64,000 nucleotides of DNA from Fibrobacterota bacterium (lineage in GTDB: Bacteria; Fibrobacterota; Chitinivibrionia; Chitinivibrionales; FEN-1185), in assembly GCA_003165595.1 (NCBI GenBank), contig PLWQ01000007.1, forward strand, positions 1 to 64,000, given 5' to 3'. Below, piece after piece: positions 24,451 to 40,664 of this stretch; the first letter of the stretch is position 1, and every line of letters begins with the position of its first letter. The position numbers and the translations under genes are program-made. The notes beneath the pieces are model-generated. The model did not search any database and was not told the origin of the DNA. It saw only the letters and a program-made list of their open reading frames with translations.

Positions 24451-24837
24451 ATGGCTGCTGCAGATACTACCTCGCTCATTGCCACGCTTGCCGCGTCGTA
24501 CCGGCGCCAGTTGGAAATGTACCGAACGCTCACCGCGCTCGTGCAGAAGACGCTGTCGCAGGTGGTGCTTTCGCGCGGCGACGTGTCGGGCGTTATGGAC
24601 AGCTTTACGCGCAAGCAGGAGCTGATTGACGCTATTGTCAAGGAGCGCGAAAATGTGGGCGACTGCGTTGTTCTGTGGCAGGAACGCAAGGCGGGTTTGA
24701 AGCAGAGTACGCAATCGCAGGAACTCGACGAACTGCTCAAAGCCACGCAATTGGTAATCAAGGAGTTCCTGGAATACGAGGAACAGCTCAAAAAATATCT
24801 CGAGCATGTCACTAAGAAAGGGAGCCCCGTCTCTTGA
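24451..24837 (+). CDS. Coiled-coil protein, FlgN/FliT-like export chaperone candidate
   Basis: The product of 128 residues is almost all alpha-helix with heptad patterns (LAASYRRQLEMYRTLTALVQ; TRKQELIDAIVKERENVG). A KQELIDAI-type segment is typical of FlgN/FliT flagellar chaperones, which hold hook-associated proteins or flagellin before export. The match is one of shape rather than strong motif. Its stop overlaps the start of the kinase gene (TGATG), so the two are translationally coupled. The following FlrB/FlrC-like pair makes a flagellar role more likely. Confidence 0.5.
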   Translation: MAAADTTSLIATLAASYRRQLEMYRTLTALVQKTLSQVVLSRGDVSGVMDSFTRKQELIDAIVKERENVGDCVVLWQERKAGLKQSTQSQELDELLKATQLVIKEFLEYEEQLKKYLEHVTKKGSPVS

Positions 24838-26092
24838 TGGCCGTCGCGAGGAAGAACACGCCCGTGCTTACCCAGGAAATGTTCGATTCCCTTACCGGAA
24901 TTATCGAGGATTTCCAGGCGCGCGCCGAAAAGCTCGCCGTATTATACGAACGTATGCGGCAGGATTTCAAGAAAGTCAACGTCGAACTCGACAAGAAAAA
25001 CGAACAGCTCGCCCAGAGTCTGCGAAAGCAAGAGGAAATTCAGACGTATCTGGGCAGCATTCTCGAAAGCATGAACAGCGGCGTGGTTGGGGTGAATACC
25101 GTGGAGCGCATAACCCATTTCAACAAGGCCGCTTCCGAAATCACCGGATTCCCCCCGGAAGAAGTAATTGACAAAAAGTATTCCGATCTGTTTCCCAAGA
25201 ACAGCGAGGGCGAGACGTCGCTTCTCCAGGTGCTCCGAACGGGCAAGGGGCTGGCCCGCGACGAAAAGGTGATCTGGCATAGGGACGGACATCCGTTGCC
25301 GGTTTCCTTCCAGACCGCGCTGCTCACCGATCCATCCGGAGCGACACTCGGCGCCGTGGAGATTTTCTCGGACATTTCCCGCATCAAGGCGCTCGAAGAG
25401 GAGATGCAGCAGACCAAGACCATGGCGGCTCTCGGCGAAATGGCTGCCACCGTAGCGCACGAAATAAGGAACCCGCTCTCCGCCATGGGAATGTGGGCCA
25501 CCCTTCTGGAGCGCGAGATAGCGCCGGAAAGCCAGAGCAGGAACATCGTACACAAGATCCTTGAGGGACTGTCGCGGCTCAACAGGATCGTGTCGAATCT
25601 GCTGGTATATTCGCGGCCTGTAAAGCCCCAGCTCCGGCCCGTGCCGCTGCAGCAGCTACTCAGCGAAACGTCCGACTTCGTGGAAATTGAGATCGAACGC
25701 CAGGGACAGAACATTGAAGTGCACAAGGCTTGGGACGGCGAGGCGGTGCAGGTTCTGATGGACCCGGAGAAACTGCAGCAGGTAATCATGAATCTGGCGC
25801 TCAACGCGATCCAGGCCATGCCCAAGGGCGGCACACTTACGGTGCGCATCGACAGCACGGAGGGCGACACCGGGTATGGCTCGTTCTCCATAAGCGACAC
25901 CGGATGCGGAATTTCCAAAGAGAACCTCGATAAAATATGGCTGCCCTTTTTCACCACAAAATCAAACGGCACCGGGCTGGGGCTTGCTATTGTCAAGAAG
26001 ATAGTCGAATCGCACTCCGGCGTGATAGAAGTGGCCAGCGAAATCGACAAGGGGACTACGGTAAAGGTCTTCTTGCCCCTGGCAAAACCCTG

Positions 26093-26093
<1 letters not shown>
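24837..26093 (+). CDS. PAS-domain sensor histidine kinase, FlrB/AtoS-like
   Basis: The order is: an N-terminal coiled coil (about 10-75), a PAS domain (about 75-185; SMNSGVVGVNTVERITHFNK), a HisKA helix with the phospho-His (GEMAATVAHEIRNPLSAMGM), and an HATPase_c domain with N, G1 (ISDTGCGI) and G2 (GTGLGLAIVKK) boxes. There is no membrane segment. It overlaps the FlgN-like gene before it and the sigma-54 regulator after it (both TGATG), so the three are one operon. This arrangement resembles FlrBC/FleSR, which turn on middle and late flagellar genes. The signal sensed by the PAS domain is unknown. Confidence 0.85.
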
Positions 26094-27469
<1,376 letters not shown>

Positions 27470-28937: not shown

Positions 28938-30521
28938 ATGAAAACCTACTTTCAGATAGTTCTCGTTCTGCTGTTGCTCGGCTTCACCGTCATGTTCAAT
29001 TTCGGGCTTGTTGACATCCGCATCGATGAACTCAATTACCTCCTCGGCAAAATCGCGAATATGCAGGATGTGTCGAATTCCCTCGGCATTGTGGGCAAGT
29101 ACGAACTCATCAAACGCCGCATGCAATACGGCGAGGAAAGCAATTCTTCCTACGAGCTCGAAGCAAAGGTGCAGGCGCTCACCTCCGGCGAGCGAACGCC
29201 CGACAAGGGGGACGAGTGGAAGAAGAAATTGTACACTGCGCCCGTGCGCATCACTCTCAACGTCATCCGTCTTTTTCTCGGCAAGGAGATCGTGAGCCTC
29301 AAGGCCGAAGACAAGATTCTCAACATCCTGGAAATCGGCTATTTCTGGGAGAGAAACAGGAAATACGTGGAGGCGATCAAGGTGTACGATGAGGTGCTGT
29401 CGCAGAATGTTCAGCCCGAGATCAAGGCCGCCGTGATGATTCACAAGGCGTTCTGCCATTCCATGCTCAGCGAATACGATATTTCCAAGCGAACCTACGA
29501 GCGCGTGATTAGCGTGTATCCGAACACAGAAGCCGGGGTGATCAGCTGGAAATTGCTTGACTTCATAGAATCGATGGAAAAACAGCGCGCCCAGCTCGAA
29601 CAGCAGAAATCGTCGTATTTCGAAAAGGCCAGACAGTTCTATCTTCTGATGGACTATCGCAACTCAATTAAGTATTTCTCGATTTTCATGCAGGAAAAAC
29701 CGCCGGATTCCCTGTTGTACCAGGCGCAGTACTACAAGGGAAGATCGCACGAAGAAGTGGGCGAAAGCGAAGAGGCCATGGCCGAATATCAAAAGGTGAT
29801 CCGTGGCGACAAGTCGCGCGAATGGGCCAAGCAGGCCAACCGCCGTATGCTCATGATGGGCGAGTTCTACGAACAAAAGAAGCAGATATCCGACGAGGCC
29901 AAGCGGCAGCTGGCGCTCTACCAGGACCAGAGCTTCATTAACAAAGTGGAGCAGTACGCCAGCATGGTCTCGGAGAGCAGCCTCAGGAAGGAACTGATGG
30001 CCGGCTCGGCGCAGAACAAGGAGGGGAAAACCGTGCGCGCCGCCGCAGACGACAGCCTGCTCAACGTCATCAACAAGATCGGCAGCCTCGATCTCACCGG
30101 AGAAAAGGAGGCCAAGCGCCAGGAGGAACTCCAGAAACTGCGAGACGAGCTTGTACAGACCGGCAGGCTGTCGGCGCAGGACGTAAAGGAACTGGAGCGC
30201 AGGAAAGACCTCGAGGACAATCCCTTCCGTCGCCCCAGCGTGCTCAAGGAGACCATCGATGAGAACTCCACCCAGCTCAAATACATTTACAACCGGAAAC
30301 TGCGCCAGGGCATAAAACTGTCCGGCAAGATGGTGGTAGAGATTTCAATCCGGCCCGACGGCGGTATCAGGAACGCCGTCGTTCTGAAATCGACCATGGG
30401 AGACAAGACATTCGAAGACGATATTGTCAAGCAGATCAGGGGATGGAAATTCAAGTCGGTATCGGACAGCCTGGGGGATTTGACGGTGAATTATCCGTTT
30501 GAGTTTACGCAGGAAGAGTAG
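28938..30521 (+). CDS. TPR protein with AgmX/PglI-type TonB-like C-terminus
   Basis: An N-terminal membrane anchor (VLVLLLLGFTVMFNFGLV) is followed by TPR helices (about 125-320; ILEIGYFWERNRKYVEAIKV, AQYYKGRSHEEVGESEEAMA). A charged coiled-coil region follows (about 335-430). The C-terminal domain contains LSGKMVVEISIRPDGGIRNA and IRGWKFKSV...VNYPFEF, the pattern of the TonB-like domain found at the end of AgmX/PglI gliding and secretion proteins. It is therefore likely an envelope-spanning protein that transmits force or assembles a periplasmic complex. It is the last gene of the co-directional run and converges on the Ser/Thr kinase gene. Confidence 0.75.
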   Translation: MKTYFQIVLVLLLLGFTVMFNFGLVDIRIDELNYLLGKIANMQDVSNSLGIVGKYELIKRRMQYGEESNSSYELEAKVQALTSGERTPDKGDEWKKKLYTAPVRITLNVIRLFLGKEIVSLKAEDKILNILEIGYFWERNRKYVEAIKVYDEVLSQNVQPEIKAAVMIHKAFCHSMLSEYDISKRTYERVISVYPNTEAGVISWKLLDFIESMEKQRAQLEQQKSSYFEKARQFYLLMDYRNSIKYFSIFMQEKPPDSLLYQAQYYKGRSHEEVGESEEAMAEYQKVIRGDKSREWAKQANRRMLMMGEFYEQKKQISDEAKRQLALYQDQSFINKVEQYASMVSESSLRKELMAGSAQNKEGKTVRAAADDSLLNVINKIGSLDLTGEKEAKRQEELQKLRDELVQTGRLSAQDVKELERRKDLEDNPFRRPSVLKETIDENSTQLKYIYNRKLRQGIKLSGKMVVEISIRPDGGIRNAVVLKSTMGDKTFEDDIVKQIRGWKFKSVSDSLGDLTVNYPFEFTQEE

Positions 30522-30689: not shown

Positions 30690-32735
30690 CTATTTAGCAA
30701 TCGCCAATTCATTCAATTTCTTCACCGCCTCCTTGAATCGCGGGCTTCCTGAATTGTTCATGTAGCATCGCTTCACATTCAGCCAATAGTTGATGGCGGT
30801 CGTCCGGTTGTCAGGCGTCGATTCGTCCCTGTATACCTCGTTGCTGGCGACAGCCGTGAAATACTGCGCGTCGTTACGCACCTCGAGGATGCTGCGGTAC
30901 TTGCTGGGTTTGGTGAGCGCGGTCTGGAAGTTCTCGATGGCGTCCTTGTTGCGTCCCATGCGCTGGTACATCTCGCCCGTGAGCAGGAAGTACTCGGCGT
31001 CGTCCAGTTTGTTGTTGAGGAGGTTCTCCTTTGCGGCCCGCAGCTTATCGGACTGGATGAGCGCGTCCACGAGCAGCAGCCACGCCTTGTCGTGCTGGGG
31101 AGAAGAGGCCGGAACGTTTTCAAGCGCGAGTTGTGCGTCGTCAATTGCGCCTTTGGCGAGCGCGGATTGACCGATGGACACGAAATCGTCGGAACCATAT
31201 TTTTTTTTGAGATTCTCCAGGGGGGAGCCGCTTGAAACCGGTTCTTTTTCGTGCACGGCCGGCTGGCGCGTCCGCTGCTGGGCCTGCGAGACAGTGCGGC
31301 CCGATGCCTGCCTGGCATTTCTGGCGCTTGCCCTCGGCGTCTCCGGCTGTTCCATCTGCGGCCGGGCTTCGGCTTGGGGAGCCTGCTGCGGCTGCACGGC
31401 CGAAAGCGGTTGCAACTGCTGCTGTTGCGCTGCCGGAGTCTGGGCCGGTGCGGCGGCCGGGGCGGGAGCAGGTTGCTGCGCCGGTGTTGAGACGGCGTGG
31501 TCGGCAGGAGCTGGTTTGGGGCCGGTGACGAGAAAGAGGGTTACGGCGGCGGCAATCACGATCGCGGCTGCAGCAGGCAAAACCACTTTGAGCGAAAGCC
31601 ATGCCGGCTTGCGCGCCTTTGTTTCCGAGGAAACGCTTGACGGGTTCGCAAGGTACGCCTTGAGCACGGCTTCCGGCGAATCCGAGGTGAGGGCCTTGTG
31701 CGCGGATTCAAGTTCGTCAAGCAAGGCCGACGCGCTAGCGTACCGGTTTTCCTTGTCGAGCTGGAGGCATTTCTGCGAGATTTTCGCGATCCCCTGAGGA
31801 ACTGAGAAGTCGAACTCCTCGAATTTCCTGTACTCGTTCATGATCTTTTTTTTCATCAGGTTTGTGATGGTCTCCTGAGGAAAAGTCTTTGTCCCTGTGA
31901 TCATCTCGTACAGGATCGCGCCGAAAGCGTAGATGTCGGCCCGGCAGTCGATGTCGACGCCGTCCATTTGCTCGGGCGAGAGGTACTGCATGGTGCCCAC
32001 GATGTTGCCCTCAACCGTGTGCAGGCTCGCCTCAGTAGGGCGCGCAATGCCGAAATCCATGAGACGGAGATCGCCGTGCTTGGAAATCATGATGTTGGCC
32101 GGCTTGAGATCCCGGTGAATGATGCCGTGGTAGGTCTTGCCGTACAGCAGGAAGTCCTGGTTATGCGCATACGACAGGGCGCGCGCCACAAAAATGGCGA
32201 TGGCAGTACATACCGACGGAGGCAGCTTGCCGGTGCGGCCGATCATGCTTTCGAGCGAGACGCCGTCGATAAGCTCCATTTCGAGGAAAGGCAGGCCGTT
32301 CCAGTCTCCCACACTGTAAATCTCGACGATGTTGGGATGCCGTAGCTTCGCCGTGATCTTCGCTTCGGTCTCGAACCGGTTCCTGAGATCGCCTTGCTGT
32401 GTGGGAATAAGAATCTTGACTGCCCGGAAGACCTCAAGCTTGTCGTTCCAGATTTTGTACACCCGTGCCATGCCGCCCGAGCCCAGCATACCCACGATGG
32501 TGCCGGAACCGAGCTGCACCGGTTCGTTGCCGCTCGGCAGGTCGGTTTGCGCATCGACCTGCTTGTTCTTGCCGCCGTACGGATTTGTCGCGCCTATCTG
32601 GGTTGCATCGACGCGGGCCTTGGTGTCGAGGGTGTGAAAGCCGGTGCCCGCGCCTGATCCTTCGACAAATGTCTTATCGAAGGACGGCTGCTCTTTCGGC
32701 TGCCGGGGATCTTGCGGATTGATCGACGTGTTCAT
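30690..32735 (-). CDS. Membrane serine/threonine protein kinase with periplasmic repeats
   Basis: This is a PASTA-less Hanks-type kinase. The glycine loop is LGSGGMARVY (84-93), the ATP lysine is Lys107, the catalytic loop is HRDLKPAN with Asp209, and DFG is at 227-229; all are intact. A single membrane segment follows at about 380-404. The outer part begins with a long Pro/Ala/Gln-rich linker and ends in TPR-like helices (LENVPASSPQHDKAWLLLVD; LTGEMYQRMGRNKDAIENF). The start chosen (MNTSINPQ) avoids a GTG 15 codons upstream that lies in an inverted repeat. It faces the tssKLM genes across a PEGA gene; kinases of this type (PpkA) control type VI secretion in other bacteria, so the same role is likely but not shown. 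Confidence 0.88.
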   Translation of the reverse strand: MNTSINPQDPRQPKEQPSFDKTFVEGSGAGTGFHTLDTKARVDATQIGATNPYGGKNKQVDAQTDLPSGNEPVQLGSGTIVGMLGSGGMARVYKIWNDKLEVFRAVKILIPTQQGDLRNRFETEAKITAKLRHPNIVEIYSVGDWNGLPFLEMELIDGVSLESMIGRTGKLPPSVCTAIAIFVARALSYAHNQDFLLYGKTYHGIIHRDLKPANIMISKHGDLRLMDFGIARPTEASLHTVEGNIVGTMQYLSPEQMDGVDIDCRADIYAFGAILYEMITGTKTFPQETITNLMKKKIMNEYRKFEEFDFSVPQGIAKISQKCLQLDKENRYASASALLDELESAHKALTSDSPEAVLKAYLANPSSVSSETKARKPAWLSLKVVLPAAAAIVIAAAVTLFLVTGPKPAPADHAVSTPAQQPAPAPAAAPAQTPAAQQQQLQPLSAVQPQQAPQAEARPQMEQPETPRASARNARQASGRTVSQAQQRTRQPAVHEKEPVSSGSPLENLKKKYGSDDFVSIGQSALAKGAIDDAQLALENVPASSPQHDKAWLLLVDALIQSDKLRAAKENLLNNKLDDAEYFLLTGEMYQRMGRNKDAIENFQTALTKPSKYRSILEVRNDAQYFTAVASNEVYRDESTPDNRTTAINYWLNVKRCYMNNSGSPRFKEAVKKLNELAIAK

Positions 32736-32772
32736 GGGATTCTGTCTAGTTGAAACTTGCTTCTTCGCCCGA

Positions 32773-32870
32773 GACCTCACCCCTTCCCCTCTCCCACAAG
32801 GAGAGGGGTTCCCGAGAATGCTTTCATCTTCCCCTTCTCCCCGTGGGAGTAGGGGATAGGGGATGAGGTC
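32773..32870. repeat. Inverted repeat upstream of the kinase gene
   Basis: GACCTCACCCC (from 32773) pairs with GGGGATGAGGTC (ending 32870). Inside is a perfect hairpin CCCCTCTCC-cacaa-GGAGAGGGG (32786-32808). This pyrimidine-rich CCCTCTCC/GGAGAGGG type is a widespread dispersed palindrome. It occupies most of the gap between the PEGA gene and the kinase. Confidence 0.7.
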
Positions 32871-32897
32871 ACAACGAAACCACCCGAGTCTTCCTTG

Positions 32898-33596
32898 TCA
32901 GAAAAACGCTACGATTTCAAACCCTATCACGCAGAGGCTCCCGGCCACAACTCCTATGATCTGGCCGTTTCTGGAACCGTTGCTTGGAGATTTGAAATTC
33001 TGGTCAAGGCTTTCGACCATGGTCAAAACCAGCCCGCCGATTGCTCCGGCGCCGAACGCCAGGCGCAAAAGTGCCTTGTTGTCAAGCGCGTTCTTCTTGG
33101 GCAGCGTCTTGTTAAGCAACACGGTCTCGCCTTTGGGCACCACGATGTCGTCGACCACTTTGTCGTATGATTTGTTCTCATGCTTTATTTCGAGCCTGTA
33201 TTTCCCTGGAATGATGAAGTCGTTGGTTACCGGCGTTTTGCCGAGCGAGGTGAGCACGTAGACGTCCGCGCCCTCGGGGTCGGAATTGACCTTGAGCGAG
33301 CCGTAGCGCGACTTGATTGTTTTCTCCACCATAGTTAGTTCGCCGGCCTGGATAAAGACATCTTCGACCGTGCTGGTGTGCTGCACAGGATCAACCAACT
33401 TGAGCGAATACCTGCCGGCCTTGAGCTTCTTGTCCAGGATGGGGGAGTCGCCGATGTACTTGTCGTCGAGCCATACCTCGATGCCGTCGGGGTCTGTCTT
33501 TACCGTGAGTGAGCCGTCGGCGTCTCCAAACGCAGCGGTCCGCAGGACGATGAACACTGCGGCAGAGGCCAAGGCGAAGCATTTTTGCAATCTCAT
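32898..33596 (-). CDS. Secreted PEGA-domain protein
   Basis: The start MRLQKCFALASAAVFIVL gives a signal peptide and has AAGGAGATACC upstream; earlier in-frame starts lack this. Two tandem PEGA-type beta domains follow: LTVKTDPDGIEVWLDDKYIG with KLKAGRYSLKLVDP, then LKVNSDPEGADVYVLTSLGK with IIPGKYRLEIKHE. A hydrophobic C-terminal stretch (about 175-233) may form one or two membrane segments. PEGA domains are thought to bind envelope polymers or protein partners. It lies between the kinase and tssK, in the same direction as the kinase. No enzymatic residues are seen. Confidence 0.8.
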   Translation of the reverse strand: MRLQKCFALASAAVFIVLRTAAFGDADGSLTVKTDPDGIEVWLDDKYIGDSPILDKKLKAGRYSLKLVDPVQHTSTVEDVFIQAGELTMVEKTIKSRYGSLKVNSDPEGADVYVLTSLGKTPVTNDFIIPGKYRLEIKHENKSYDKVVDDIVVPKGETVLLNKTLPKKNALDNKALLRLAFGAGAIGGLVLTMVESLDQNFKSPSNGSRNGQIIGVVAGSLCVIGFEIVAFF

Positions 33597-33886
33597 GGTA
33601 TCTCCTTGCTTGCACTGTTTTACCCGGCGCCCGTCTTTTTCCCAGGAAAAGCTTTTCAGGAGAAAGGGCACGGGTTTATTTTATGATGTCTTGGGCGCCA
33701 TGCGCGATTCTGCAACATCGGCTTCGCGCGGGCCGATTCAACCGGGGCCAAACACATGTCGTTCTGCGAACATCGGTTTCCCGGAGGCGCAATTGTTAAA
33801 AATACAATACGTTACGGGGCAAAACCAAAGCAAACGTTACCTCGCTTGCGCGGCAACAGAACCCTGCATCACGAAAAGAGGTCCCT

Positions 33887-35239
33887 GTGCTAGGAAACAG
33901 TAAGGTCATTTGGAAAGAGGGAATGTTTTTGCAGCCGCACCACTTTCAGCAGGCGGAGCGGTATCTGCTTAATTCATTTCACGCGGCGCTGCTTTCGCAT
34001 TCGCCCCATTGGTACGGTATCACCGAACTCGAAATTGACAAAGACGCAATCTCCAATGGCCTCTTCTCGGTGACCCGGTGCAGCGGCATGCTTCCCGACG
34101 GCGTGGCGTTCTCCATGCCCAAAGAAGATCCGCCGCCTGCCGCCCGTTCGTTTACCGACCACTTTTCCCACGATCAGCAATCGCTCGACGTGTACCTTGC
34201 CCTGCCGCTGGTTGCGGAAGGCAAGGCGAACGTGGTATCGGCCTCCCTGGAAGGACAGGCGGCAGCGCGATTCCGTTCGCGCACGGTAACGGTCGGCGAC
34301 GAGGTGCTCGGCATGCAACGCAAGGAAATAGACGTAGGCGCTTACAACTTTGTCCTCCTGTTTGCCGACGAGTCCCTCGACAATCATGCGTCATTCCAGG
34401 TGGGAAAGCTCGCAAGGAACCAGAGCGGCTCGGTGGAACTCGTGCCCTCGTTCGTACCGCCGCTGCTTTCCATCGGCGCATCGCCGTATATGCTTTCGGT
34501 GCTTCGCTCACTGCTCGAACTGCTGCTTGCCAAAATCACTTCGTTGTCCCAGGGAAGAAAACAGGTAGAAGGCGGATTCGCCGAATTCACCGGGGGGGAG
34601 GAGACTCCGTTCCGGCTGCTGCAGACCCTCAACACCTTCACGCCGCTGCTCACGCATTTTCACTCGTTCCCCAGCGTCCATCCCTACGATGTCTTTTGCC
34701 TGCTCACGCAGTTTGCCGGCGCGTTGTGCACGTTCTCTTCGGAGGTGTCGATACGAAACCTGCCGCGCTACGACCATGCGAACCTGTCGGCCACGTTTAC
34801 CGCTCTTGTCAAGATCATCCGGACTGTGCTCGAAGCGGACATCCAGGCCGGTTGCGTGCCGGTGCCCATAGAGCAGATAAACCAGGCCACGTTCGTGTGC
34901 AAAATCCCGGACGAAAAGCTGCTGAGCGTGGCCAAATTTTTCCTGGGCGTTTCGGCCAAGGTGCAGGAAAAGGAACTCGTTGTAGGAGCGTTGCAGCGCA
35001 TCAAGATGTGCTCACGCAACCGGCTCGACCTGCTCATTTCGTCGGCAATGCCGGGCCTGCCGCTCAAACACACCCTGCACCCGCCGCAGGGGCTTTCCAC
35101 CAAGCCCGGGTTCGTCTACTTCAGCCTCGACCAGCAGGGAGACTTCTGGAACCAGATCAAGGCCGCGGGGAATATCGCGTTTTATTTTCCGAACAATTAT
35201 CCGGAATTGAAGATGGAGATGCTGGCTCTAAAAGAATAA
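33887..35239 (+). CDS. tssK: Type VI secretion baseplate protein TssK
   Basis: TssK links the T6SS baseplate to the TssJLM membrane complex. The N-terminus VIWKEGMFLQPHHFQQAERY is the clearest family signature, and LNTFTPLLTHFHSFPSVHPY with GLPLKHTLHPPQGLSTKPGF mark the middle and C-terminal domains. At 450 residues it is full length. It starts with GTG. It is the first gene of tssK-tssL-tssM. The next gene is unusually far away (466 bases) across a hairpin array. No sheath (TssBC), Hcp, VgrG or ClpV gene is visible in the window. The 290-base stretch before it (33597-33886) shows only weak promoter boxes such as TACAAT at 33803. Confidence 0.92.
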   Translation: MLGNSKVIWKEGMFLQPHHFQQAERYLLNSFHAALLSHSPHWYGITELEIDKDAISNGLFSVTRCSGMLPDGVAFSMPKEDPPPAARSFTDHFSHDQQSLDVYLALPLVAEGKANVVSASLEGQAAARFRSRTVTVGDEVLGMQRKEIDVGAYNFVLLFADESLDNHASFQVGKLARNQSGSVELVPSFVPPLLSIGASPYMLSVLRSLLELLLAKITSLSQGRKQVEGGFAEFTGGEETPFRLLQTLNTFTPLLTHFHSFPSVHPYDVFCLLTQFAGALCTFSSEVSIRNLPRYDHANLSATFTALVKIIRTVLEADIQAGCVPVPIEQINQATFVCKIPDEKLLSVAKFFLGVSAKVQEKELVVGALQRIKMCSRNRLDLLISSAMPGLPLKHTLHPPQGLSTKPGFVYFSLDQQGDFWNQIKAAGNIAFYFPNNYPELKMEMLALKE

Positions 35240-35510
35240 ACATTAAGTGACAAATGCGATTTTGGTGGGGAAGTTTCCCCCTGGCTTCAGCCCGGCGTAC
35301 CGCCGGTCTTCCGCCACCCCCTCCCGGGTGCACCCCTTGAGAGAGTAGTTGAAGGTTTCAACCTTCGGTTGGGGGGCACCCACGAGGAGTCGTTGGCAAG
35401 AAAAGGATTTCAGAGGAATTGCAAGGTCGGCAATTTGTTGCCAGAGAAAACAGAGCCGATTAGGCTTGGTTTCTACAGCCACGGCAGCGGCATACCGCAG
35501 AGAAGGCGTT

Positions 35511-35662
35511 GCGGAAACACGACACTCGCGTTGCGCAATCGACGCGAATCGTGCGTGTTTCCGCTGGAAAGGGTGTGGGCGCAGATCGCCGCCGCACCTT
35601 TCGACTCCGCTCAGGGTGCGGCGGAAGCTGCGCCCCAGGGGAAACCGCGTAGCGGTGTCCCC
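35511..35662. repeat. Array of strong hairpins between tssK and tssL
   Basis: Three strong inverted repeats follow one another. The first is GCGGAAACACG (35511-35521) with CGTGTTTCCGC (35554-35564), which has an inner TCGCGT/ACGCGA. The second is GGGCGCAG (35577-35584) with CTGCGCCC (35628-35635), enclosing CGCCGCACC/GGTGCGGCG. The third is GGGGAAACCGC (35638-35648) with GCGGTGTCCCC (35652-35662). A smaller one, GAAGGTT-tc-AACCTTC, lies near 35350. The whole gap 35240-35705 has no convincing gene. TTTCGACTCCGCTCAGGGTG in the second hairpin is typical of dispersed palindromic repeats. Confidence 0.65.
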
Positions 35663-35705
35663 ACAAGAAACAGAATGGTTTTTTAGAAAAAGGAATCTTG
35701 CAATT

Positions 35706-36452
35706 ATGGGAAATTCATTCGTAGAAACCATGGCCGGCCAGACCATGAACCTCGATGTCACCAAGACGCTCGGGGTCAAGCGGGACGTGAGCGCTCTGTG
35801 CACCGACCTGTTCCTCATCATTATTCGCATGCGTGAAGCGGAAGACCTGGGAGATCCCGCGGCGCTGCGCAAGCTGATTACCTATTATATCAGCCTGTTC
35901 GAGAAAAACTGCAAGGCCATCGGCATGGACCAGGATTCCATTGTGGAGGCAAAATATGCCATGATCGCGCTCATGGACGAGACCGTTCTCAGCGTTCCGG
36001 GCGCGTGCCGGGATTACTGGATTTCGCGGCCCATGCAGCTCGACTATTTCGGCGACAACATTGCGGGACAGGAATTCTACGAGAAGCTGCAGAAGATGCT
36101 GTTGCAGCCCGAGAACAAGAAACACGTGCTCGAAGTGTTCTTCCTGTGTCTGGCGCTCGGGTTCGAGGGCAAGTACAAGATGTTCAACGGAGAGGAACGC
36201 ATCGCGATCATGGAAGACCTGGGGCGCAAGCTTCGCAGAACCAGGATCCGCGCATCTTCCGATTTGTCGCCCCACGGCAAACGGCCCGAATCGTCCGGGG
36301 AAAAAAAGGCCGGGACATTCTTTTTCCCGCTGTGGCTGTCGGGCGCGATCGCGGCGGCAGCGGTCGTTGTCTGCTGGATCGCACTGTTTATCACAAACGG
36401 TTCCTCGGCACGGGACCTTCTTTCATCCATCCAATCCCTATCGGCGCAGTAA
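35706..36452 (+). CDS. tssL: Type VI secretion membrane protein TssL (DotU/IcmH family)
   Basis: TssL forms the inner-membrane part of the T6SS with TssM. The 248-residue protein has the DotU helical domain (about 25-180; VEAKYAMIALMDETVLSVPG, then FEGKYKMFNGEERI) and a single C-terminal membrane segment (about 206-230). There is no C-terminal OmpA-like peptidoglycan-binding domain, so it is the short form; anchoring would need another protein. The ATG has AAGGA upstream, and the frame further upstream reads through the hairpin array and is not coding. tssM starts six bases after its stop. Confidence 0.92.
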   Translation: MGNSFVETMAGQTMNLDVTKTLGVKRDVSALCTDLFLIIIRMREAEDLGDPAALRKLITYYISLFEKNCKAIGMDQDSIVEAKYAMIALMDETVLSVPGACRDYWISRPMQLDYFGDNIAGQEFYEKLQKMLLQPENKKHVLEVFFLCLALGFEGKYKMFNGEERIAIMEDLGRKLRRTRIRASSDLSPHGKRPESSGEKKAGTFFFPLWLSGAIAAAAVVVCWIALFITNGSSARDLLSSIQSLSAQ

Positions 36453-36458
36453 CCAACC

Positions 36459-39400
36459 ATGAAAAAACTTCCCGTCTGGATCATTGTCGTCTGGTGTGTG
36501 CTTGCTTTGTGCGGCGTGCTCGCGACTGTCGTTGGCGCACTTGTGAAGCTCCCCTCGGTTCTTGGGTGGCTGCCCGGCGTGGTGCTGCTTGCCGGCGATG
36601 CGGTCTGGATCGCGCTCAAGCTCACCCTCGGAAGGCCCAGGAAGAAAACGCCGAATTTCTTTACCGGGAACCAGACCGTGCTGGCGCGGATCTCCCGGGA
36701 GACAAATGAAGCGGTGAACCGCTATCTGGGGGCGGTACTCCGCAAAGGCCTGATGAAGAAAAGCGCACTGTACGAACGGCCGTGGTTTTTGCTGTGCGGC
36801 GCGGAAAAATCCGGTAAAACATCGCTTTTGCGCGGCGCGGGCCTCAATTTCCCGCTTCGCTACCCCTCGGAAAAAGACGGCATGGTGCTCGACGGCGCGG
36901 GGCAGATCACCTGGTACTTTGCAAATGAGGCGGTGTGGATCGACACGCCCGGCGCGCTTATGCAGGATGACGGAAAAGACACCTGGCAGGCCCTGGTCAC
37001 GTCCCTTTCGCATGTGAGGCCGGAAAGGCCGGTCGACGGCATCGCGCTTGTGGTGAGCGCGCAGGAAGTGCTCAACGCCGACGACCGCGGGATAAAGGAA
37101 CTTGCGGCAACCCTTCGGAGGAGAATAGACGAGCTCATTGCGGCATGGGGAATCGAGTTTCCCGTCTACCTTGTGTTCAACCATTCCGACAAGATCCCGG
37201 GGTTCGGTGAATATTTCGGAGACCAGCTGGTACGGGCCCAGGATCAGATCTTCGGCGCGACGCTGTCCGCCGATCAGGACAAGATGCTGCCGAGGATGGC
37301 GTTCGCCCAGGAATTCACCTTGCTTTCAAAATCGCTCACCGATTTGCGCCTTGACAAACTATACAAGGAGAAGGATGAGTCGAAGAGGCGGATGATATGC
37401 CGGTTCGTCATCCACTTCGAGGGGATACAGGAAAAACTCGGCGCATTTGTCACCGAATTGTTCAAACCGAGCAATTACGAAGGCAAGCCGCTGTTCAGAG
37501 GGTTCTACTTCACAAGCTGTATGGAAATTGCATCCGGTGAGTCGGCGAGCGCTCCGGAGCAGCGCTCCGACGCCGGCCAGACCATCGTGAACCACCCGCT
37601 TAACCCGCGCAGGATGCTTGCGCCGGAAGCGCCGCAGCAGAAGGCCGAAAAGAAAAACGAGGTGCACTCGGTTTTCGTGCTGCCGCTGTTCCGCGAACTC
37701 ATGGTACGCGGCAAAGAGCTTGTGACCACGACGCAGAAGCGCAACCGCCGCGAATATGTTCGGCATTACCTTATAACCGCGGCCGTCGCTGCTGCGGCGT
37801 GCATTGTCGCGGGGCTTATGGTGTGGGGCCAGAACACGTCGCGTGAACTGCTCCAAACGGTAAAGACCGACCTGTCGGCGGTGCCGGCCGGCGACGGCGG
37901 CATTCTCTCGCGGTATGCCTCGCTGGACGCCGCCGGGAAAGCGGTGGCGCGGCTGCAACAGTACGAAGACCACGGCGCGCCCGTGCTGTCGTGGCTGTTC
38001 GGCTTCTACCAGGGCCGCGGTGCGCTCGACAGACTCAAAACCGCCTATTTCGCTAAAATCAACAATCTGTTGGTTGTCCCGAGCGTCAAGTATCTGGAGT
38101 ATCAGCTCTGGGAGAAGGTGCAGGGGTACGGCGAGCTGGCCGGACAGGACTACGACAATCTCTACAACGTGCTCAAGGCTTACCTGTCAATTTCCGAAAC
38201 CATGACCGGCCGCCAGAAAGACATCGACACCACCTTTTTGCGCGGGGTCCTGCTGGACGCGGTCAAACAGTCCCTGCTTTCGTCACAGAACGGCCAGGCG
38301 AGGCTGCCCCAGCAGATCGAGACGATACTCAGCGACAACATGGGAGTGTACCTGCTGTATCTCAAGCGGCAGGGCATTTCTCCCATCCAGGAAAACCAGC
38401 GGCTGGTGACGCTCGCGCGCACACGGCTGCGCCGTCTTCCCAGCGCGCAGGCGCTGTACGAGTCGGTGATCAACCGGCTCCACCAGGACGCTCCGTCCAT
38501 TTCCCTCGACCAGATTCTGAGCCGCAAGGAGGAGGGGATCCTCAAAGCCGACAGGACAATCAGCGTTCTTTACACACAGGAAGGCTGGGAAAAATTCGTG
38601 TCGGACGCCATCGGCCGGGCGAGCAACGACCCGTTCAAGCTCGATTGGGTGATAGGCCTGTCGTCCGATCAGGTGCCCGAGGAGACGCTCGACAAAAAGA
38701 AACTCTATGCCGACATGGTGGCCGCCTATCTCGCAGATTTTTCGTCGCAATGGCTCGGCTTTCTCTCTTCTGTGAAGATGGAGCCGTATGGCGATCTGGG
38801 CAGAAGCCAGCGCATACTCCAGAAACTCGTGGCGGAGAAATCCGAACTTGCCGTTCTCCTGTCCACCGTTTCCGACTACACGCTGCTCAAGAAGGAAAGC
38901 ATGGCCGACAAGGCCGGCGGGGCCGTGCTTGATGCCGCCTCCAAAGTGCCGGGCGCTCAGGGAATCGCGAAATCGGTGCAGAAGGCGGAAGGTGAGGCCA
39001 ACAAGGCGGAAGGCGCGCTGTCGTCTTTTTCCCTCGGCCAGAAATCGCCGTTCGACGACCTCAATGCAACGTTTGATCCCCTGCGTTCGTTTTCGCGTTC
39101 CACCGGGGGCGCCTTGAGCGGTTACGAAGGATTCCGGGACAAGATTCAAACGCTTGCCGCCAAGATAGCGACCCTCGAAACGCAGGGCGAAGACAATGCG
39201 CCGTCCGTCTTTACCGGCAAGGACGACGATCCGCTTCTCAACTGCTGGAAATTCTCGCAAGCCGCGCTCTCCAACATGCCGGAGAATCTTTCCGCATCAC
39301 TCAAGGGCATTCTTATGATGCCGGTCGACTACACCGCGGCTGCTGCATCGGCAGTCCTCACCAGGACGCTCACGGCGCGCTGGCATGCAGAAATTGTCAA

Positions 39401-40088
39401 GCCTTTCACTGCCAAATTTTCTGGCAAGTACCCGTTCGCGGCAAGAGGAGAGGACGCGGCTTTCAGCGACGTCATGGACTTCTTCCGGCCGCAAACCGGA
39501 ACGTTCTGGGGATTTTACGATCGCGTGCTCACGCCGTACCTTGTCAAGACTACCTCCGGATGGATGGTAAAGCCGGTGGGAAGCCTCACGCTCAATTTCA
39601 ATCCGCAGCTTGCTCCTTCGCTGGTGAGCGCGGAACGGGTCCGCGACATTTTCTTCAAGCCCGACGGTACCGTGCGCCCCATGTCGATTACCATGACGCC
39701 GTCGGCTTCCAACAAGAACAGCGCGAAGCTCGAAGTAAACGGCCAGGCCTTTGACCTCGCGCCAGGCGGGCGCTCCGTCCTGGTTACCTGGCCGCTCGAT
39801 GCCGCTCCGCTGGGCGCGTCGCTCAAGATACTCGTGAGCTCCGATTTTACTCAGGACATTTCCTTTAACGGGCCGTGGGGATTCCTCAGACTCATGCAGG
39901 CCGCGCATGTCAACAAACTCAACGCGACAACCGTTAATGCGCGCTGGCAGGTGAATGTTCAGAACATGTACATGGTGGTCCAGGAGTACCGGGTCCAGGT
40001 GTCGGGATCAGATCATCCGTTCGGCGATCCGGTCTTCTCGGAATTCAGTTGCCCAACGGAACTGTTTGTCGGGGAGGTGAAGAAGTAG
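36459..40088 (+). CDS. tssM: Type VI secretion membrane protein TssM (IcmF)
   Basis: TssM is the large inner-membrane protein that spans the periplasm and joins TssL to the outer-membrane ring. It is full length (1209 aa). Two membrane segments are at the N-terminus (about 5-27 and 33-53). A cytoplasmic GTPase-like domain follows, with Walker A GAEKSGKT (114-121) and VWIDTPGAL. A third membrane segment is near 430-455 (AAVAAAACIVAGLMVWG). The long periplasmic part contains the IcmF-related and C-terminal TssM domains, ending with GPWGFLRLMQAAHV. It is coupled to tssL. No TssJ lipoprotein gene follows; repeat A copy 3 begins almost at its stop codon. Confidence 0.93.
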   Translation: MKKLPVWIIVVWCVLALCGVLATVVGALVKLPSVLGWLPGVVLLAGDAVWIALKLTLGRPRKKTPNFFTGNQTVLARISRETNEAVNRYLGAVLRKGLMKKSALYERPWFLLCGAEKSGKTSLLRGAGLNFPLRYPSEKDGMVLDGAGQITWYFANEAVWIDTPGALMQDDGKDTWQALVTSLSHVRPERPVDGIALVVSAQEVLNADDRGIKELAATLRRRIDELIAAWGIEFPVYLVFNHSDKIPGFGEYFGDQLVRAQDQIFGATLSADQDKMLPRMAFAQEFTLLSKSLTDLRLDKLYKEKDESKRRMICRFVIHFEGIQEKLGAFVTELFKPSNYEGKPLFRGFYFTSCMEIASGESASAPEQRSDAGQTIVNHPLNPRRMLAPEAPQQKAEKKNEVHSVFVLPLFRELMVRGKELVTTTQKRNRREYVRHYLITAAVAAAACIVAGLMVWGQNTSRELLQTVKTDLSAVPAGDGGILSRYASLDAAGKAVARLQQYEDHGAPVLSWLFGFYQGRGALDRLKTAYFAKINNLLVVPSVKYLEYQLWEKVQGYGELAGQDYDNLYNVLKAYLSISETMTGRQKDIDTTFLRGVLLDAVKQSLLSSQNGQARLPQQIETILSDNMGVYLLYLKRQGISPIQENQRLVTLARTRLRRLPSAQALYESVINRLHQDAPSISLDQILSRKEEGILKADRTISVLYTQEGWEKFVSDAIGRASNDPFKLDWVIGLSSDQVPEETLDKKKLYADMVAAYLADFSSQWLGFLSSVKMEPYGDLGRSQRILQKLVAEKSELAVLLSTVSDYTLLKKESMADKAGGAVLDAASKVPGAQGIAKSVQKAEGEANKAEGALSSFSLGQKSPFDDLNATFDPLRSFSRSTGGALSGYEGFRDKIQTLAAKIATLETQGEDNAPSVFTGKDDDPLLNCWKFSQAALSNMPENLSASLKGILMMPVDYTAAAASAVLTRTLTARWHAEIVKPFTAKFSGKYPFAARGEDAAFSDVMDFFRPQTGTFWGFYDRVLTPYLVKTTSGWMVKPVGSLTLNFNPQLAPSLVSAERVRDIFFKPDGTVRPMSITMTPSASNKNSAKLEVNGQAFDLAPGGRSVLVTWPLDAAPLGASLKILVSSDFTQDISFNGPWGFLRLMQAAHVNKLNATTVNARWQVNVQNMYMVVQEYRVQVSGSDHPFGDPVFSEFSCPTELFVGEVKK

Positions 40089-40089
40089 G

Positions 40090-40188
40090 ATTGAATCCCA
40101 AAGTTTGCCAACCCCGGAGGTTCGCTGTTGCGTCTACTCCTGTAGTGTTGTATGCAGTCGTAGTCGTGGTGCTGCGGGGTCCTTTAAT
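40090..40188 (+). repeat. Dispersed repeat family A, copy 3 (right part)
   Basis: It opens with TTGAATCCCA, the family left edge, skips the middle, and then matches the right half of copies 2 and 4: GGAGGTTCGCTGTTGCGTCT, then TGTAGTGTTGTATGCAGTCG and GTCGTGGTGCTGCGGGG. It starts within a few bases of the tssM stop codon. Confidence 0.8.
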
Positions 40189-40205
40189 CATGTACTGTAA
40201 GGCTC

Positions 40206-40664
40206 TTAGAGCACATGGCCCCTTGTCCTGGTATACTCCCGTATTATCCTCACGAAGCGGTAGATCGAGCTGATTGCCCGCGCAGAAATCCTCTGCCAAT
40301 TTGGATTGACAACTGAGATTCCTGCTTTTGAAGTCTTCCGGATCTTCTTGGCAAGGTCCATGAGCACTTCAATCTGGTTCAGGTTGAGCGGGAACACAAT
40401 GCGACCGGGGTCGCGTTCCACCGATCCGCCGTAAATCTCCGAGAGGTCGACGATTTCCTGGGTGAGCGGAATATTGCCCAAGAGCTCAAACACGAAATTC
40501 CCGCGGTTACCCACGGTTACGAACATGGTGCAGAACTGCGTGAGATCGTCGTTGTCGTCCATGTCGTCAATCTGAATCGCAAAGTCCTTTTTGACCGAAC
40601 CGGTGATAAAATCCTTTTCACCGAGATAGGATTCAGTCAGATATCGCCTGAGCCGTGCCGACAT
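40206..40664 (-). CDS. Hypothetical protein (152 aa)
   Basis: I do not recognise this family. The product is soluble, with mixed helix and strand, and starts MSARLRRYLTESYLGEKDF. A Asp-rich stretch (IDDMDDNDDL) is near residue 32. The C-terminal half (LNLNQIEVLMDLAKKIRKT, then a basic end with RISARAISSIYRFVRIIREY) looks helical and could bind nucleic acid or protein. AAGGGA lies upstream of the ATG. It is convergent with tssM across repeat A. Whether it belongs to the secretion locus cannot be told. The stretch 40665-41054 upstream holds repeat B, a terminator and the csp promoter. Confidence 0.6.
   Translation of the reverse strand: MSARLRRYLTESYLGEKDFITGSVKKDFAIQIDDMDDNDDLTQFCTMFVTVGNRGNFVFELLGNIPLTQEIVDLSEIYGGSVERDPGRIVFPLNLNQIEVLMDLAKKIRKTSKAGISVVNPNWQRISARAISSIYRFVRIIREYTRTRGHVL

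Follow-up and report, generated by a model that had tools for sequence, protein, structure and literature searches.

A Ser/Thr kinase and a PEGA protein are linked to tssK in a type VI secretion system with dispersed genes in Chitinivibrionales (Fibrobacterota)

The 64,000-nucleotide stretch of DNA analysed here (contig PLWQ01000007.1 of a Fibrobacterota bacterium of the order Chitinivibrionales; G000:C39:1-64000, referred to below as the window) carries tssK, tssL and tssM of a type VI secretion system (T6SS) beside genes for a Ser/Thr protein kinase (STK) and a PEGA protein. The other parts of the system were found elsewhere in the same assembly (5.39 Mb, 42 contigs, completeness 98 %), and the genome almost certainly encodes one T6SS with genes scattered over at least four places. 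The kinase and the PEGA protein very probably serve this T6SS, and their retention across the order suggests a lineage-specific trigger or anchor of the system. The argument is built on the following features of the window:

30690-32735, minus strand: Ser/Thr protein kinase of PpkA-like layout (Pfam Pkinase, E 2.7e-45)
32898-33596, minus strand: PEGA protein, 232 aa, with two PEGA domains (Pfam PEGA twice, E 8.9e-22)
33887-35239, plus strand: tssK, the baseplate adaptor docking on the membrane complex (PF05936, E 4e-121, full length; TIGR03353)
35706-36452, plus strand: tssL, short form, a DotU domain with one transmembrane (TM) helix (PF09850, E 2.5e-48)
36459-40088, plus strand: tssM/IcmF, complete, 1209 aa (PF14331, PF06761, PF21070, PF06744; TIGR03348)

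The original prediction, made from the sequence alone, had described tssK, tssL and tssM as intact and flanked by a Ser/Thr kinase and a PEGA protein. The Pfam matches listed above bear out both flanking genes, and full-length frames of the three tss genes were recovered by Pfam and NCBIfam, with 381 bits for TssK (cut-off 100), 581 for TssM (cut-off 388) and 153 for DotU/TssL (cut-off 90). TssM comprises the Pfam domains IcmF_N, IcmF-related, IcmF_helical and IcmF_C, is predicted to have three TM helices, located around residues 8-45 and 438-456, and keeps the C-terminal C2-like domain (Pfam) that binds TssJ in other T6SSs. The start of tssL was moved from 35349 to 35706 (MGNSFV, 248 aa), giving the length of its orthologue, and no OmpA/peptidoglycan-binding domain was detected in the protein by Pfam, in agreement with the missing tail remarked on earlier. 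A profile search of the 64-kb window for all T6SS parts returned only K, L and M; the original prediction had likewise noted no other T6SS gene within at least 20 kb on either side.

The remaining genes are located on contig C41:

C41:175568-177052, plus strand: tssA (curated family)
C41:177078-177587, plus strand: tssB (PF05591)
C41:177639-179159, plus strand: tssC (PF05943 and PF18945)
C41:179277-179774, plus strand: hcp (PF05638)
C41 about 159921-163039, minus strand: tssG, tssF and tssE, 12.5 kb left of tssA-B-C-hcp
C41:50468-52639: vgrG, single copy (TIGR03361, 319 bits against a cut-off of 186)

The genome accordingly holds the sheath (TssB/TssC) and tube (Hcp), the baseplate proteins TssE, F, G and K, TssL and TssM, and the spike VgrG. 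The copies of tssK and tssM in the window are the only ones in the genome, and tssC on C41 is single as well. With contigs as long as C41 (387 kb), the split is not an effect of the assembly. A split T6SS, one of the two readings first offered for the locus, is what the search for tssBC, tssEFG, hcp and vgrG revealed; a remote cluster completing the tssKLM set is an outcome that the original prediction had named as refuting it, and the notion of a minimal tssKLM locus had to be given up. An alignment of TssK worked as a query, and a single TssM sequence used in a tBLASTn-type scan of genome contigs gave no match.

Two sets of genomes were compared, a class sample of 40 genomes, all of the same order as the window, and a sample of 168 genomes of the phylum Fibrobacterota; relatives known by name are metagenome-assembled genomes of Chitinispirillaceae/Chitinivibrionales. 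In the class sample tssK was present in 31 genomes, tssM in 30 and tssC in 29. Genome G004 has a single cluster that reads vgrG, tssL, tssK, PEGA, STK and then tssA-B-C-hcp-E-F-G-clpV-tssM; in other genomes, as in that of the window, tssKLM or tssKL is separated from tssABC-hcp. tssM switches between the two blocks, and the kinase, the PEGA gene and tssKL stay together, this block being kept across the order both where the genes are split and where they form contiguous clusters (G004, G019, G038). The gene order is mobile, and the window shows one of its arrangements, not a special minimal locus.

A PEGA profile applied to the phylum sample gave 26 matches at E<=1e-64, followed by a gap to 1e-30. 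In every one of the 26, tssK or a fragment of it is 197-863 bp away, and the kinase adjoins the PEGA gene in 23 of the 25 cases in which the far side could be read, the exceptions being G019:C91, with no adjacent kinase, and G020:C193, with kinases at a distance of about 5 kb. Genomes of the order devoid of tssK yielded weak PEGA matches only. PEGA is shortened or unrecognised in the small-genome genus g7, G014 has a kinase-PEGA pair with no tssK beside it, and G008, G009 and G011:C40 have tssKLM and the kinase with no recognised PEGA neighbour. A PEGA gene beside tssK was also sought in Planctomycetota, Eisenbacteria, Gemmatimonadetes and Proteobacteria, and no PEGA profile match was obtained in the loci searched. 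Pairwise distances of PEGA, kinase, TssK and TssL correlate (r 0.80-0.89, with no control for species relatedness and no shuffle test), which is consistent with joint descent of the four sequences. The order-wide linkage to tssK gives strong comparative-genomics support to the proposal that the kinase and the PEGA protein belong to the tssKLM system.

The kinase gene probably starts at 32735, within an open reading frame of 696 aa that opens at 32780; in the numbering of that frame the kinase domain spans about residues 95-355 and a TM helix about 399-417. Beyond the helix a P/A/Q-rich linker precedes a TPR-like C-terminal domain (weak Pfam TPR match), which is predicted to be periplasmic. The VK, HRDLKPxN and DFG catalytic motifs are invariant in 24 kinase orthologues, nearly all of which have a single TM helix, then a linker and an outer domain that is less well conserved. 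The kinase thereby matches one feature of the PpkA (threonine phosphorylation) pathway, a membrane-spanning Ser/Thr kinase that is linked to a T6SS and intact at its catalytic residues. PADLOC matches of the kinase (PD-T4-6 and others) were rejected as reflecting a generic kinase domain.

The PEGA gene starts at 33596, behind a AAGGAGAT motif (Shine-Dalgarno sequence). Its product consists of a signal/anchor helix (residues 2-22), two beta domains (28-93 and 99-164) and two helices (173-201 and 207-231), with a conserved GFEIVAFF at the C-terminus. Neither a lipobox nor a conserved cysteine at the end of the signal peptide was seen in the alignment, and the protein seems to be anchored in the inner membrane and not in the outer one. 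The AlphaFold2 model has a mean pLDDT of 84 and a pTM of 0.49, the latter value making its domain order unreliable. Its top PDB fold matches are CnaB and transthyretin-like domains; a TssJ structure is not among the 50 best, and a search of the protein against PDB sequences gave nothing significant. One chain of the RtkS-PpkA complex, 9k1u_D, ranks lower among the fold matches, with an E of 0.028 over 67 columns and a target-based TM-score of 0.59.

In Serratia the periplasmic protein RtkS activates PpkA (PMC6082577), and in Agrobacterium and V. alginolyticus TssL is phosphorylated by PpkA (PMC10482370). By analogy, we consider it rather probable that the kinase and the PEGA protein form a T6SS-dedicated trans-envelope phospho-signalling pair of the PpkA-RtkS type, comparable also to PpkA with TagR. 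Going beyond the presence of complete genes, the remote set, the linkage, the catalytic motifs and the predicted topology, we infer an interaction, a direction of signalling, a target and a system that fires. The PEGA protein would sit in the inner membrane with its two beta domains in the periplasm, where it may sense or contact the cell wall or the periplasmic part of TssM. It would engage the periplasmic TPR domain of the kinase, and the kinase would dimerise and phosphorylate a cytoplasmic target, possibly TssL, TssM, TssK or an FHA protein. Phosphorylation might then license the assembly of the TssLM base and the docking of the TssK-EFG baseplate, with the C41 loci supplying the tube (Hcp), the sheath (TssBC) and the spike (VgrG).

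A possible reader of the phosphorylation signal is present in the relatives. The FHA domain reads phosphothreonine, which makes a kinase-controlled cell-wall opener for the machine a natural hypothesis, and an FHA-TM-transglycosylase (SLT) fusion, found in T6SS/STK loci of nine relatives near tssA, vgrG, tssM, tssK or the kinase, is a candidate phospho-reader as judged from its domains. Both FHA and SLT were found by Pfam in the six complete homologues tested, and SLT in a seventh, cut at a contig end. The homologues are:

L044:14499-16064, L051:2097-3764, L064:2841-4337, L068:1015-2688, L077:6749-8737: FHA-TM-SLT homologues
L095:7941-9335, L055:1-1164, L093:10215-11492, L094:9456-11312: FHA-TM-SLT homologues

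Several observations weigh against this overall picture of a working T6SS with a dedicated signalling pair. No FHA protein was found in the loci read from the window's own genome, the whole genome not having been searched for it, and no ClpV/TssH was found above cut-off in that genome. The periplasmic domain of the kinase is TPR-like, unlike that of known PpkA proteins. The small transthyretin/CnaB-like fold is common, and the 9k1u_D match is weak, being to a 77-residue chain not assigned to RtkS or PpkA; it is suggestive at most.

The absence of tssJ, likewise part of the original prediction, extends from the window to the genome (no PF12790 match at E<=1) and to every PEGA-bearing T6SS cluster of the order. 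The only TssJ of the order (E 1.6e-12) is a lipoprotein encoded directly before tssK in G022:C74, in a tssK-L-M-E-F-G-vgrG cluster that has neither PEGA nor kinase; the same genome has another tssK fragment, accompanied by both (G022:C133). This single case suggests that PEGA and TssJ may be mutually exclusive. TssJ is missing from some functional T6SSs, e.g. that of Acinetobacter (PMC10564176), so its absence does not bar the locus from membership. The PEGA protein could belong structurally to the membrane complex and replace TssJ there by stabilising or anchoring the periplasmic arch of TssM, with the kinase as a separate regulator. Besides the distribution of TssJ, this reading draws on the retained C2-like domain of TssM, on the PEGA gene staying beside tssK in G019:C91 where no kinase adjoins it, and on the TssJ-less Acinetobacter system, which co-opted another protein, TsmK (PMC10564176). 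However, the single TssJ-bearing cluster belongs to another lineage, the PEGA protein has two C-terminal membrane helices, no lipobox and an apparent inner-membrane location, its model does not bring up TssJ among the 50 best fold matches, and G008, G009 and G011:C40 manage with no recognised PEGA neighbour. Of the two roles that the original prediction had suggested for the pair, regulation is our best guess, and anchoring by PEGA in place of missing parts would fit the TssJ pattern. We regard this structural reading as rather unlikely; a part for the PEGA protein in TssJ's role, to which we give the same low weight, would be compatible with signalling. Somewhat more doubtful is the fuller scheme in which PEGA is a core part of a TssJ-less class of Fibrobacterota T6SS, replaces TssJ at the TssM arch and couples the arch to an assembly-gating kinase, which in relatives would recruit the FHA-tethered transglycosylase to open the cell wall.

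Two further explanations concern the system as a whole. The T6SS may be decaying, its dispersal over at least four places and the lack of ClpV marking a system that no longer fires, all the more as G031, of the same genus, is among the 16 of 40 class genomes with a ClpV above cut-off. Against decay, all core frames found are intact, the close relatives G031, G015, G035 and G037 are equally dispersed yet retain ClpV, and a completeness of 98 % leaves room for a gap. C41:349951-352533, the best ClpV match, was rejected as such; scoring 1350 bits as ClpB and 820 as ClpV (cut-off 885), it is ClpB. ClpB could stand in ClpV's place, and does its work in Francisella. Decay is considered improbable. 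Hardly credible is a machine other than a T6SS, be it for gliding, as the original prediction had entertained, TonB-like energy transfer or an orphan envelope complex. The window has no tail genes, and a TonB-like protein, earlier termed AgmX/TonB-type, is encoded two genes away (28938-30521; its only TonB_C match, at E 9e-4, falls short of the cut-off of 24.6 bits with a score of 20.0). Yet the same genome contains a full set of tail genes with no KLM of its own, the block sits within contiguous T6SS clusters in relatives, and the TonB-like gene lies outside the conserved neighbourhood.

Two other features adjoin the block in the window:

33597-33886: gap between the divergently oriented PEGA and tssK genes (from the sequence), presumed to be a two-way promoter region
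40206-40664, minus strand: conserved 152-aa protein, convergent with tssM (profile matches beside tssM, alignment)

A pattern scan of the PEGA-tssK gap found no sigma-54 site, the pattern being rarer in the window than expected by chance, and no Rfam RNA elements were detected at the locus. In 9 genomes of the order the 152-aa protein is encoded after tssM, also where the latter is apart from tssKL; it has no Pfam, NCBIfam or PHROGs family, and none of the PDB matches of its AlphaFold2 model (pLDDT 84) is significant, type III secretion chaperones coming out best (E 0.07). A PAS histidine kinase followed by an NtrC-type sigma-54 activator is encoded at 24834-27469, 3 kb beyond the T6SS kinase.

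On C41, small genes just upstream of vgrG (L009:5656-10352) gave DUF3592-like, LysM and SH3-like matches and are likely a cargo/adaptor island. Large lectin-like (Laminin_G_3) proteins are encoded in a run directly after hcp (L004:2881-13483, equal to C41:179881-190483), which is not kept beside hcp in the relatives read. In G018, whose T6SS has no ClpV, two adjoining Clp-type ATPases of about 970 aa (G018:C49; L189:5376 and 8467) are present, neither of them ClpV by cut-off. Seven relatives encode sheath proteins distantly similar to TssC (about 580-640 aa, E 1e-15 to 1e-38), which probably represent another contractile system. A further secreted protein, probably beta-helix-like as judged by eye from one sequence, has no Pfam family and ends in a two-helix membrane hairpin resembling that of the PEGA protein; in nine clusters it is encoded next to the kinase, tssM or tssL. 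The positions are:

G035:C158, G033:C58, G036:C123, G034:C28, G004:C53, G037:C106, G005:C1: distant TssC-like proteins
L045:13877-14728, L047:13378-14259, L049:5439-6377, L054:3145-4047: beta-helix-like protein
L057:13230-14072, L062:11497-12372, L063:5768-6667: beta-helix-like protein

T6SSs with kinases, without TssJ and with dispersed genes are each already known. In a limited library of open-access literature no paper was found that joins a T6SS with a PEGA domain or Fibrobacterota with a T6SS, nor one describing the fixed PEGA partner or the FHA-transglycosylase fusion. Acinetobacter is so far the one worked example of how TssJ-less T6SSs cross the envelope, and a second lineage with a fixed, kinase-wired candidate would, if the candidate is real, show whether the role of TssJ has been repeatedly re-invented. 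The present case is also a caution that dispersed T6SS genes can pass for orphan loci.

The system resembles T6SS-i in possessing TssA, B, C, E, F, G, K, L, M, Hcp and VgrG, all by curated families, and differs in its genes lying in at least four places, in the lack of a detected TssJ or ClpV and in the STK-PEGA pair fixed beside tssK. With the PpkA-Fha-PppA pathway (RtkS in Serratia, TagQRST in Pseudomonas) it shares a T6SS-linked transmembrane STK that has a periplasmic domain and an adjacent periplasmic partner. It differs in that the partner belongs to the PEGA proteins and is anchored in the membrane by two helices; neither Fha nor PppA is encoded beside the kinase (PppA was not searched for genome-wide), and the candidate phospho-reader in relatives is the FHA-TM-transglycosylase fusion. 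The TssJ-less T6SS of Acinetobacter likewise combines a membrane complex devoid of TssJ with a lineage-specific envelope protein, but TsmK is reported to have a ketoacyl-synthase-like fold, unrelated to PEGA, and in the present locus a kinase is attached (PMC10564176).

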